Origin: Defluviitaleaceae bacterium
GTDB taxonomy: Bacteria > Bacillota > Clostridia > Lachnospirales > WQUN01
Length of the DNA stretch: 64,000 nt
Assembly (NCBI GenBank): GCA_009780315.1
Contig: WRAH01000003.1
Location: 62,001-126,000, forward strand
Direction: 5' to 3'
Part shown: positions 60,036-64,000 of the stretch, piece after piece
How the letters are laid out: every line of letters begins with the position of its first letter
How positions within the stretch are numbered: position 1 is the first letter of the stretch
Notes under the pieces: model-generated
The model's input: the letters and a program-made list of their open reading frames with translations, nothing else
Database searches by the model: none
What the model was told of the DNA's origin: nothing
Translations under genes and position numbers: made by a program

Positions 60036-60344
60036 TTATGCTGATTTTAATATGATAATGTTATCATTAACATAAAGTGCAACGGTACTGCCTGCTTTCC
60101 AGCCTTGTTGACTTAATAGTTCATGAGAAAATGTTACCCTGTGCAGTTCGTCTAGGGTGCTGGTGTAGTTGTAACAGGTACATGCGGGGATGGGCTCACC
60201 GTCTACACGCTGTAAAATGACAATCGTGTCTATTGGGGTGAGGGAAACCTGCATGTTTGCTCTTAAATTAAGTTTGGTTCTAATCTCGACGGGCAAAACC
60301 ATCCGTCCTAGTTCGTCAATACCTCTGGAGCTGTATCGTTCCAT
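60036..60344 (-). CDS. AbrB-like regulator with two swapped-hairpin halves
   Basis: 102 aa. The N-terminal 45 residues ('RGIDELGRMVLPVEIRTKL') match the SpoVT/AbrB DNA-binding fold of transition-state regulators. The second half ('STLDELHRVTFSHELLSQQG') has the same spacing and looks like a second, diverged copy, where AbrB itself has a different C-terminal domain. AGGAGG 9 bases before ATG. It probably regulates stationary-phase genes; a palindrome upstream at 60361-60386 may be its own site. Confidence 0.8.
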   Translation of the reverse strand: MERYSSRGIDELGRMVLPVEIRTKLNLRANMQVSLTPIDTIVILQRVDGEPIPACTCYNYTSTLDELHRVTFSHELLSQQGWKAGSTVALYVNDNIIILKSA

Positions 60345-60360
60345 GGCTTAACGCCTCCTT

Positions 60361-60386
60361 ATAATTTATTTGCCGAAATAAATTAT
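60361..60386. repeat. 11 bp AT-rich inverted repeat before the AbrB-like gene
   Basis: ATAATTTATTT (60361-60371) and AAATAAATTAT (60376-60386) are perfect complements around GCCG. It lies between the start of the AbrB-like gene and the candidate noncoding RNA and could control either. Confidence 0.55.
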
Positions 60387-60389
60387 GCA

Positions 60390-60395
60390 TATAAG
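60390..60395 (+). promoter_or_regulatory. candidate -10 box of the noncoding RNA
   Basis: TATAAG, five of six to consensus, would start transcription near 60402, one base before the first stem of the RNA. No convincing -35 box is present. Confidence 0.35.
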
Positions 60396-60401
60396 GATGG
60401 C

Positions 60402-60698
60402 CGCCATCACCTAAGTTAAACAGGTTCGCCATAACACACACAACATTTGCATTGTATCGCTATCGCATAGGTTAATTAAAAACATCTCAAGGCGGGGGAT
60501 GCTTGAAAATGTGAGGTGATTGTTGTAAAATAAAATTGCCGTGGTGGCAGGTGAACCTGTTTATATTAGGCGATGGCTAAGTGCATCCCTATATAAGCTG
60601 ACGGGTGGGCTAACACCTGTTCAGCTACTGCGGTACTTCCACTTTATTTCCGCACCTGTATTTTACCATATGACTTCCTCTAGGGGAAGCTTTTTTTT
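60402..60698 (+). ncRNA. candidate structured noncoding RNA, unknown class
   Basis: No convincing protein gene exists between 60345 and 60706. The plus strand folds well: a long closing stem pairs 60403-60427 with 60553-60577 (22 of 25 positions), extended by GCCA 60428-60431 with 60545-60548. Inside lie ACAACA/TGTTGT (60440-60445 with 60521-60526) and a 7 bp hairpin 60483-60489 with 60512-60518. After the closing stem come a 12 bp hairpin with one bulge (60596-60626), a 5 bp hairpin (60629-60654, 16-base loop) and a terminator. CAGGTG (60548-60553) can also pair with either of two CACCTG copies (60614, 60653), allowing an alternative fold. SRP RNA, RNase P RNA and tmRNA signatures were not found; 6S or a raiA-like RNA cannot be judged. 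Confidence 0.55.
60674..60698 (+). terminator. Rho-independent terminator of the noncoding RNA
   Basis: CTTCC (60674-60678) pairs with GGAAG (60685-60689), followed by C and eight T (60691-60698). Confidence 0.65.
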
Positions 60699-61147: not shown

Positions 61148-62947
61148 TTATTGGTAAGTCTTTTCCATTTCTGTAACAAGGGATTCAAATACTTTTAAAG
61201 CTTCGCGGATGGGTTCTGGAGTGGACATGTCTACGCCGGCTTTTTTTAGGATGTTGATGGAGTAATCACTACTGCCGCTTTTTAGAAATTCAAGATAATC
61301 CTTCACCGCAGGTTCGCCCATTTCTTTTATCCGTTTTGTAAAAGCAATTGCCGCAGAATATCCTGTAGAGTACTGGAATACATAGAATGCACGATAGAAA
61401 TGAGAAATACGCGCCCATTCTAGGTCGATTTTTTCATCAATCACAACATCTGCACCATAATATTTTACGTTTAAGTCACGATAGACTTGGTTTATGGTGT
61501 CAAGAATCAGTGGTTTGCCTTCTTCTGCCATGGTGTGCAAAATATGCTCAAATTCTGCAAACATGGTTTGGCGAAAGACGGTGGTGCGGAACTGCTCAAT
61601 ATATTCTCCAAGCAAATACATGCGGATTTTTGGGTCAGTTGTGGTTTTTAACATGTGTTCCATCAACAGGGTTTCATTGACGGTGGACGCGACTTCTGCA
61701 AGAAAAGTCGTGTAACTGCTATAAACCATGGGCTGGTTACTGCGGGAGTAGAAGCTGTGCATGGCGTGACCCATTTCGTGGGCTAGGGTGAATAAGTCGC
61801 CTAGTTTATCACTATAGTTCAACAGTACATATGGCGATGTGCCATACGTACCCCATGCGTATGCGCCGCCTGTTTTGCCCTCGTTGTTGTATACGTCTAT
61901 CCAGCCGCTTTCCATGCCTTTTGACATTTCATCTAAATAGGCTTTGCCAAGGGGCTCAAGCCCTTCAACTAAAATTTTCTTGGCTTCATCATAGGGCATT
62001 TTTGTATCGGCTTCTTCTACAATGGGCGTGTACAGGTCGTACATATGCAGTTCATCTACTTTTAATGCTTTTTTACGCAAAGCCATATAGCGATGCATGA
62101 CAGGTAAGAACTCATGCACTGCTTGAATCAAATTGTCGTAAACAGAGATGGGGATATTGCTGGTATTTAATGACGCACCACGGGCAGAATCATATTTTTT
62201 TGTGCGGGCAACAAAAATATCATTTTTAATGCTGGCGTTAAGCATTGCCGCAAAGGTGTTTTTAAGCTTCCAAAATTCATCATAGAAGGTGTTAAAAGTG
62301 TCTTCCCGTACACGGCGGTTTGAGGATTCCATGAGAGAAATAAAATTGCCGCTGGTGACTTCTACTGTATTGCCGTTTTCGTCGGTGATACTGGCAAATT
62401 TCATGTCTGCATCGGTGAGCATATCGTTGATATTTTTTGCACCGTCGCCTATTTCTGATACAGCGGCAAGTATTCCTTCAACCTCCGCGCTTAAAGTGTG
62501 GGCTTTTTTGCGTAAAATATTGTTGAGATATTGGGTGTATACTTCCAATCCAGCCGTGGTTTCTATAAAGCCTTTGACGGTTGCTTCGTCAAGCTCTAAA
62601 ATTTCTGGCGTGATAAATGAAACGGCGGCTAAAAATTTTGCGTATTGGCTGGCAATGACATTTGCCATGCCTTGGGATTCTGAAACATTGCTGTCTTCGT
62701 GGAGCCGCATATTGGCATAAACATATAGCTTGAAAACCAAGTTGGCAACATTGTGATATGTTTTTAAACCCTCAAGCAAAGTTTTTCCGTCTTTTAGCTT
62801 GCCGCGGAAGGCTTCTATTTTTGCAATTTCACTGGGAATGGAATCCACGCCTTTTTGCCAATCGGCATTGGTGGCGAAAATGTCTTCCAGCTTCCATTTA
62901 AACTCGGCAGGAATTTCACTGCGTTTTTTTTGCTTTATGGTTGCCAT
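61148..62947 (-). CDS. pepF: oligoendopeptidase F
   Basis: Cytoplasmic M3-family zinc peptidase of 599 aa that degrades oligopeptides of about 7-17 residues. Zinc motif 'LAHEMGHAMHSFYS' (HExxH near residue 380) with the third ligand Glu in 'FLAEVASTVNETLL'. N-terminus 'FKWKLEDIF' and end 'RISHFYRAFYVFQYSTG' (core 'HFYRAFYVFQYSTG') are typical. Start 62947 is five bases after the kinase stop; the ribosome site AAAGG is 13 bases away, so coupling or the earlier ATG 62977 is possible. Confidence 0.92.
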   Translation of the reverse strand: MATIKQKKRSEIPAEFKWKLEDIFATNADWQKGVDSIPSEIAKIEAFRGKLKDGKTLLEGLKTYHNVANLVFKLYVYANMRLHEDSNVSESQGMANVIASQYAKFLAAVSFITPEILELDEATVKGFIETTAGLEVYTQYLNNILRKKAHTLSAEVEGILAAVSEIGDGAKNINDMLTDADMKFASITDENGNTVEVTSGNFISLMESSNRRVREDTFNTFYDEFWKLKNTFAAMLNASIKNDIFVARTKKYDSARGASLNTSNIPISVYDNLIQAVHEFLPVMHRYMALRKKALKVDELHMYDLYTPIVEEADTKMPYDEAKKILVEGLEPLGKAYLDEMSKGMESGWIDVYNNEGKTGGAYAWGTYGTSPYVLLNYSDKLGDLFTLAHEMGHAMHSFYSRSNQPMVYSSYTTFLAEVASTVNETLLMEHMLKTTTDPKIRMYLLGEYIEQFRTTVFRQTMFAEFEHILHTMAEEGKPLILDTINQVYRDLNVKYYGADVVIDEKIDLEWARISHFYRAFYVFQYSTGYSAAIAFTKRIKEMGEPAVKDYLEFLKSGSSDYSINILKKAGVDMSTPEPIREALKVFESLVTEMEKTYQ

Positions 62948-62952
62948 AGGTT

Positions 62953-64000
62953 TTAGTCTACCTTTCCATCGCCCCATGCTTGGGCAAATTCAATCACTTG
63001 TTCAAATGTAGGGCTTTTTGCGTTGCGTACATAAAATCCAGAGGTGGATACACCCAAAGTCAATGAAGCAAGGGGGTCAAGCCCAAGTGCTTGCCCTAGG
63101 CAAAATCCTGCGTTGAAATTGTCGCCTGCGCCTGTTGTAAGCTTTGGTTTTTCACAGTATGGGCCATCTGTAGAGAAATATTCACCGCCAATGGCACAAC
63201 ATGCACTGCGTACAGGATGTACCACTAGGCAATAGATATTCATTGCCTTATGCACTGCCATGACGGCACTTTGTAATTTGTCAGTGTCATTTTCAGGCAG
63301 TGCAATGTCAAGGGCGGCGGCGATTTGATAGACTTCGCTTTCATTAAGCCCTAAAACTGCACGGAATTTTTCTTCAAAGCGTCCAATCAGTTTCATGGCG
63401 TGGCTGATGTCTGCTTTGGTGCGTTTTTCTGGGTCTGCCAAGTCAAAGAATGCAAGGGGCTTTTCTGCTGGGGTGTCAAGGAGTGGGAACACTTCGTCAA
63501 TCAACCCTTGCCAGATGTCACTCATGTGGGGCATCATTGTCCAGTTTTCCATGCCGAACAACTGATTTTCTTGAATTAACTTTGCAATGCCTTCTGCACC
63601 GCCAAGGGCGTTTTTGAAAACATCCCATGTAATATCCACTAAGGTAGAATGCTTACCAATCATAATTTTACCGTCTTCAAATTCTACAGCGTCAGTAAAC
63701 CCTGGGTTGCCTAGGCTGTAGATGGCTTTTGCTTTTTCTACCATGGGTTTAAAAACAGGGTGAATATCAGGCTTGCCAAGAATGCCTGCATAGGTTAAAT
63801 CAACACCATATTCTAAGAGTGCATTGGAAAGAATCGGCCCATTTCCTCCAAGTTTTGTTTGGATACTGACCATTTCTACATTGGCACTAAGCCCTGATGC
63901 TGCAACGATACGCTCGCCAAACTCTTTAATGGTGGGGATACGTGTGTAGTTGGCATAGTCTTGCCGCTTGTCTACTGGATGGACAATTTCGTCTACAAAG
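62953..64000 (-). CDS. PfkB-family carbohydrate kinase, 5' end outside window
   Basis: Ribokinase-like sugar kinase. The frame is open to the right edge (the segment before the internal Met at 63873 reads 'FVDEIVHPVDK' and 'TRIPTIKEFGERIVAASG'), so the true start is outside. Visible: 'GGNGPILSNALLEYG' (substrate region), 'AVLGLNESEVYQI' and the catalytic anion hole 'TTGAGDNFNAGFC'. The sugar cannot be told from the motifs. Followed by pepF with a five-base gap. Confidence 0.85.
   Translation of the reverse strand, partial: FVDEIVHPVDKRQDYANYTRIPTIKEFGERIVAASGLSANVEMVSIQTKLGGNGPILSNALLEYGVDLTYAGILGKPDIHPVFKPMVEKAKAIYSLGNPGFTDAVEFEDGKIMIGKHSTLVDITWDVFKNALGGAEGIAKLIQENQLFGMENWTMMPHMSDIWQGLIDEVFPLLDTPAEKPLAFFDLADPEKRTKADISHAMKLIGRFEEKFRAVLGLNESEVYQIAAALDIALPENDTDKLQSAVMAVHKAMNIYCLVVHPVRSACCAIGGEYFSTDGPYCEKPKLTTGAGDNFNAGFCLGQALGLDPLASLTLGVSTSGFYVRNAKSPTFEQVIEFAQAWGDGKVD

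Follow-up and report, generated by a model that had tools for sequence, protein, structure and literature searches.

Antisense-RNA attenuation is known above all from the copy control of plasmids. In the attenuator of pT181, the 5' part of the terminator is kept paired to an anti-terminator, except when antisense RNA occupies the latter (PMC4878617), and both pT181 and pIP501 have been listed among the antisense-RNA transcriptional attenuators (PMC5415839). A further relative is SymE-SymR, in which a cis-encoded antisense RNA lies opposite the message of an AbrB-superfamily protein; the SymE family is reported to be nearly confined to proteobacteria (PMC1891008). In the present study, we followed up the stretch 60402-60698 of the window (the whole 64,000 nt of Defluviitaleaceae DNA that was analysed), which the first-pass annotation had described as an independent structured RNA of about 300 nt next to an AbrB-type regulator. 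We consider it probable that the window carries one copy of a dispersed chromosomal cassette, in which an antisense RNA controls the leader of a gene through a switch between two elements, P3 and P3' (Table 1). The copies seem to make up a chromosomal family of on/off switches run by antisense RNA, a kind best known from plasmids.

Table 1. Features of the cassette copy in the window (window coordinates).
Feature	Position	Strand	Basis
AbrB/MazE/SpoVT-type regulator, 102 aa, predicted controlled gene	60036..60344	-	PF04014, TIGR01439
Predicted 5' leader of the AbrB-type gene, antisense to the entire plus RNA	60345..60653	-	Copy comparison, folding
Hairpin at the Shine-Dalgarno site (AAGGAGG, 60360-60354) of the AbrB gene	60354..60384	-	Folding
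P3' element: 5' arm GGCGAACCTGTTTAACTTAGGTGATGG, repeating P2/P3, then GCGGCCATCC; without U-tract	60392..60430	-	Copy comparison
Predicted promoter of the antisense RNA: -35 TTGAAA 60503-60508, 17-nt spacer, -10 TAAAAT 60526-60531	60503..60531	+	Conserved in copies
Candidate structured antisense RNA, about 108 nt	60538..60645	+	Consensus fold, covariation, z -3.95
Stems of the RNA	P1 60538-60544/60628-60634; P2 60547-60559; P3 60561-60596; P4 60597-60625	+	Window copy
Anti-P2/P3 segment of the leader, antiterminator-like arm	60550..60576	-	Complementary to 60404-60430 on the minus transcript
Predicted convergent leader promoter: -10 TAAAAT 60665-60660, 17 nt, -35 TTCCCC 60688-60683, A8 tract 60698-60690	60660..60698	-	Copy comparison

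As had been noted before, no credible protein gene is present within 60402-60698. The folding energy of the stretch was -103.8 kcal/mol as plus RNA (z -5.9, matched by 0 of 200 shuffles) and -92.5 kcal/mol as minus RNA (z -5.0 against shuffles). When 24 copies were aligned with MAFFT, with no structure given and before any model was built, a consensus with P1, P2 and P3 emerged, in which P1 was paired in 100% of cells and carried two-sided changes in 4 of its 7 pairs. The consensus folding energy was -13.9 kcal/mol on the plus strand versus -4.1 kcal/mol on the minus strand, and the plus strand is therefore the one that folds. The comparison with homologues, which had been proposed earlier as a check, gave strong compensatory change: among 90 aligned copies, 91.3% of cells pair, two-sided changes are seen in 25 of 30 pairs, and the covariation score was 0.414 compared with 0.204 after shuffling and at most 0.151 after sliding. 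This larger alignment was fitted to the covariance model and so leans towards the structure, which the alignment of 24 copies does not. The fold is a four-way junction in which P1 closes P2, P3 and P4; single members form the same junction with small local differences only, followed usually by U-rich sequence, and the window copy folded by itself gave the z-score listed in Table 1. In addition to the conserved fold, the RNA holds conserved unpaired bases. These findings make the existence of a structured RNA family close to certain.

The limits of the RNA differ from those first proposed. The plus RNA comes to about 108 nt in place of 300, and its start, at about 60538, lies behind a conserved promoter of the form TTGAAA-17-TAAAAT and not at the TATAAG box to which it had been assigned; comparison of the copies lends no support to a 300-nt RNA from that box. 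The 3' end is uncertain, and the RNA could extend to 60698. The copies of CACCTG and CAGGTG, formerly taken to allow competing folds, are the arms of P2 and P4, and no conserved competing fold was found. A riboswitch or cis leader of a plus-strand gene was rejected, since the RNA in most copies terminates in its own P1 and a U-rich tail, and every AbrB-type neighbour is encoded on the strand opposite to the RNA. The idea of an independent plus-strand RNA of a class outside Rfam was supported: in Rfam 15, at the gathering score, 0 families matched the whole window, and searches at lenient thresholds, run on the region and on 16 member loci, linked the element to no RNA family, the lenient matches to SgrS (E 0.75) and Vax2os1 (E 2.3) being chance. 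ARAGORN likewise found nothing relevant. The RNA resembles the structured RNAs of Rfam (6S, SRP, raiA) in being of similar size, structured and promoter-driven, yet it matches none in Rfam 15. In the open-access literature searched, no paper was recognised as describing the element; an earlier description elsewhere is possible.

The window copy has many relatives. A DNA search of its own genome gave, besides the query, 8 diverged partial copies, mostly of the middle part only (about 60521-60597). A common core was read from the copies, GCYGYGGTGGCAGGT..ACCTG....GGYGATGG....CATCC, behind a promoter like TTGAA-17-TATAMT, and a pattern search detected this core in the genomes of several members of the same family. 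The scan of the GTDB collection with the core pattern gave matches that include Defluviitaleaceae MAGs with the isolate labels Lab288 and Emb289, from which we infer that the core-bearing family is one of termite-gut bacteria; the pattern matches outside this family (L041-L043, L046, L053-L055, L063) were set aside as apparent chance matches in coding sequence. With a covariance model built from the alignment (cut-off E<=0.01, the E-values being rough), 192 copies, related by descent, were found in 23 of the 38 family genomes, the assemblies being MAGs. Single genomes hold up to 37 copies, others 21, 20 and 15, the last number being that of the window's genome. Among the sampled genomes of the order, 11 of 146 matched, all of them from the same family and none from outside it. 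In the class and phylum, matches were rare (G250, G183, G729, G691 and, doubtfully, G321), and in the family of G729 the RNA was found in 9 of 46 genomes. The doubtful match (L121 of G321) was excluded from the promoter counts. The distant members L118 and L119 (G250), L120 (G183) and L186-L197 (family of G729) belong to other families and another class of the phylum, and convergent promoters are visible in those that were read.

Inside one genome the RNAs are 61-95% identical, so that cross-talk is likely limited to the closest pairs. Two cassettes 10 kb apart on one contig (L107 and L110, G000:C1) are about 95% identical and in opposite orientation; their similarity reaches from P3' as far as the minus promoter, so duplication seems to involve the cassette as a whole. 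In the genome with 37 copies (G010), five near-identical cassettes (L018, L027, L032, L036, L039) sit no more than a few hundred bases from the end of a contig, a position expected of recent copies that interrupt the assembly, which suggests ongoing spread. Such multiplicity, together with this pair and with P3 and P3' being inverted repeats around a promoter, could point to a MITE-like mobile repeat or to a promoter segment that inverts, any RNA activity then being a by-product. We regard this as highly improbable and rejected it on two grounds, the compensatory change throughout the RNA stems and the arms within a copy, which are short and imperfect (GTAGGCTTGG versus GTAGGCAAGG in L118). 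Furthermore, the AbrB-type gene lies on one side only, and an unsystematic look revealed neither shared ends nor a recombinase. A plasmid or phage origin is likewise unsupported: one RNA copy compared with the PLSDB plasmids and with a phage collection had no match in either, and the core pattern had none in viral contigs.

The cassette is framed by two convergent promoters, both called by consensus. The plus promoter reached a consensus score of at least 8/12 in 89 of 89 copies compared with 14% of shuffles. The minus promoter sits a few to a few tens of bases, most often 5-20 nt, beyond the 3' end of the RNA; an extended -10 was found in 56% of copies versus 6% of shuffles, and by the plain consensus score (at least 8/12) the promoter was called in 73% versus 40% of shuffles, which is a modest enrichment. 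Both promoters and the complete overlap of the predicted transcripts are present in nearly all of the 89 copies. As in pT181 and pIP501, an antisense RNA with its own predicted promoter would be complementary along its whole length to the 5' portion of a leader, and as far as sequence tells it is very likely that a cassette with an antisense RNA against a leader is a real arrangement.

This arrangement changes the reading of several elements that had been noticed before. The region had been declared not to be a leader, with all its elements on one strand; we find instead that it is the predicted 5' leader of the AbrB gene on the minus strand and that the RNA is antisense to that leader. The stem of 25 positions and 22 pairs does exist as a pairing (60404-60430 with 60550-60576), but it belongs to the opposite-strand leader, as P3' and anti-P3; as the plus RNA begins at about 60538 and lacks the 5' arm, the minus transcript is the only one in which this stem can form. 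Of the proper terminator, the hairpin with T8 at 60674-60698 stands, but the same sequence is the -35 region and A-tract of the conserved minus promoter. Among the copies of this genome, the A/T tract is conserved there and the 6-bp hairpin is kept in some only; in the window copy, the hairpin may act as a backup terminator.

The P3' element lies about 80-230 nt past the plus promoter, read on the minus strand. Its 5' arm is a near-identical repeat of the P3 arm of the RNA, GTGTAGGYGATG, which makes P3' complementary to the anti-P3 segment that the leader itself contains. In about 65 copies P3' runs into a T-tract as an intrinsic terminator (for example AAGGTGTGTAGGTGATGGCAAAATTTTTGCCGTCCTTACACACCTTTTTT in L147), which in these copies would correspond to the leader terminator of pT181 and pIP501, whereas the hairpin of the window copy, unlike that of most others, has no U-tract. 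When a leader ending midway through P3' was folded, its P3' arm paired with the antisense region (P>0.5) in 39 of 65 copies and, with the upstream part shuffled, in 0 of 65. The antiterminator thus resembles that of pT181 and pIP501, as it lies inside the antisense-bound region and is complementary to the 5' arm of the terminator. The median probability of the terminator was 0.95 with the antisense region masked, as if bound by the RNA, and 0.88 unmasked. At equilibrium the antiterminator exceeded the terminator in just 11 of 65 copies; since the terminator wins there without antisense RNA, the switch, if real, must be kinetic in most copies. The P3 and P3' arms of one copy match weakly better than arms of different copies (p 0.35 in G016, 0.015-0.07 in three groups).

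On the basis of these models, the following switching mechanism is probable. The minus promoter would give a leader that is complementary to the whole plus RNA and continues through P3' into a gene with a ribosome-binding site. Without antisense RNA, anti-P3 would capture the emerging 5' arm of P3', no terminator would form, and the gene would be read (ON). Pairing of the antisense RNA with the first part of the leader would occupy anti-P3, so that P3' would fold and transcription would stop (OFF). In the window copy, whose P3' ends without a U-tract, the same exchange is predicted to open or close the ribosome-binding site in front of the AbrB-type gene. Folding of this copy gave an unpaired probability of the Shine-Dalgarno site of 0.59 in the free leader and 0.01 with the antisense region occupied; such closure was clear in 3 of the 7 AbrB copies of the window's genome (the window copy and two others) and absent in four. 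In a side observation on the AbrB-linked genus, G016 (L122-L140) and G025 (L020, L034, L057), the 5' end of the leader, AAAGGYCAGCGGC, pairs with GCCGCUGRCCUUU between the terminator and the Shine-Dalgarno site, and both sides vary together between copies. The mean energy of this pairing in G016 was -26.8 kcal/mol versus -17.7 kcal/mol when shuffled, and in the other groups tested pairing of this type was absent.

Two other explanations bear on the same elements. Transcriptional interference, or cleavage of the sense-antisense duplex by RNase III, could be the main action, with the alternation of P3 and P3' incidental, since the promoters face each other across the RNA, the transcripts overlap completely, and the terminator is stable at equilibrium without antisense RNA. 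We think this improbable, as P3' together with its shared arm is found again in distant genomes of the phylum, and the pairing in the nascent leader lies far above the shuffled controls. In the other explanation, a single trans-acting factor, either a protein or a further RNA, binds both the RNA and the P3' hairpin; abundant plus RNA would act as a decoy, freeing or blocking the leader hairpin, and the antisense overlap would be secondary. A stem motif common to P3 and P3' in most copies (GUGUAGGYGAUG..CAUCCCUACAC) as well as the conserved unpaired bases and four-way fold of the RNA would suit such a factor. However, the arm shifts with the subgroup, being GUAGG, GAAGG or GCAGG in both P3 and P3', for which pairing is a simpler explanation than a fixed site; moreover the RNA is always antisense to the leader, and both promoters are kept. 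This explanation is accordingly judged unlikely.

With the relevant sequence features present in most copies, we infer that the cassette works like an attenuator of the pT181/pIP501 type. It differs from those systems in being chromosomal, in up to 37 copies per genome and before many unrelated genes, where theirs controls a plasmid rep gene; its antisense RNA also has a conserved four-way junction, with no Rfam match and, for the one copy compared, no PLSDB match. If true, this would be a distributed regulatory system of attenuation logic with its own RNA fold, two conserved promoters and many copies per genome. The natural variants of the cassette would then be ready for specificity studies and for RNA circuit design. 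Annotation gains a new RNA family. A point against the antisense switch as the best explanation is that the conserved unpaired bases and the fold exceed the needs of mere antisense pairing. There is a small chance that the plus RNA is an antisense regulator and a sensor at once, with a ligand or protein bound at its conserved four-way junction deciding whether the RNA can pair with its leader. If this were true, the many copies would add up to a single chromosomal network, a regulon of the "antisense riboswitch" type that acts on AbrB-type regulators in one branch and on secreted or surface proteins elsewhere.

The genes behind the cassette were called by a simple rule of open reading frame and Shine-Dalgarno site. 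After P3', a same-strand gene with such a site was found in 70 of 81 copies, and no downstream gene was detectable in 11 of 81; in L107, L103 and L113 a convergent gene follows the cassette in place of a target gene. The AbrB-type regulator reported next to the stretch was confirmed, as the 102-aa protein scored 40.1 bits with TIGR01439 (cut-off 28.3) and 30.9 bits with PF04014, over the cut-off. Its position is not incidental: a phmmer search with five AbrB-type proteins, which covered the minus strand towards P3' and, on the opposite flank, both strands, placed AbrB-type genes at 25 copies, without exception on the minus strand of the P3' side. In other genera different genes stand behind the cassette, many with apparent signal peptides.

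Like SymE-SymR, the cassette has, at the level of sequence, a cis antisense RNA that faces the 5' portion of an AbrB-fold gene's message, and one distant copy (in G729) precedes a gene of the SymE family. It differs in that most targets are MazE/AbrB-type or other genes; the window protein belongs to PF04014/TIGR01439 and had no SymE_toxin match. Furthermore, the cassette RNA overlaps an upstream leader with a terminator, and its proteins are not known to be toxic. The sole SymE gene of G729 (PF08845, 45 bits) lies about 280 bp from that genome's one RNA copy; there, at L182 (G729:C1:1753307-1753833), the SymE_toxin gene stands directly after the distant antisense cassette, and a seemingly decayed SymE follows the same cassette at L183 (G691). 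The family thereby ties antisense RNA to AbrB-superfamily genes (AbrB/MazE, SymE) outside proteobacteria. Many AbrB-type proteins of G016 (L127, L130, L135, L138, L139) have a C-terminal CxxC...CxxC tail like a zinc ribbon, which in L127 gave weak matches to Gin and DZR_2. On the other side of the window copy, the oligoendopeptidase F gene (pepF, 61148-62977, minus strand, TIGR00181 626 bits) is an ordinary neighbour.
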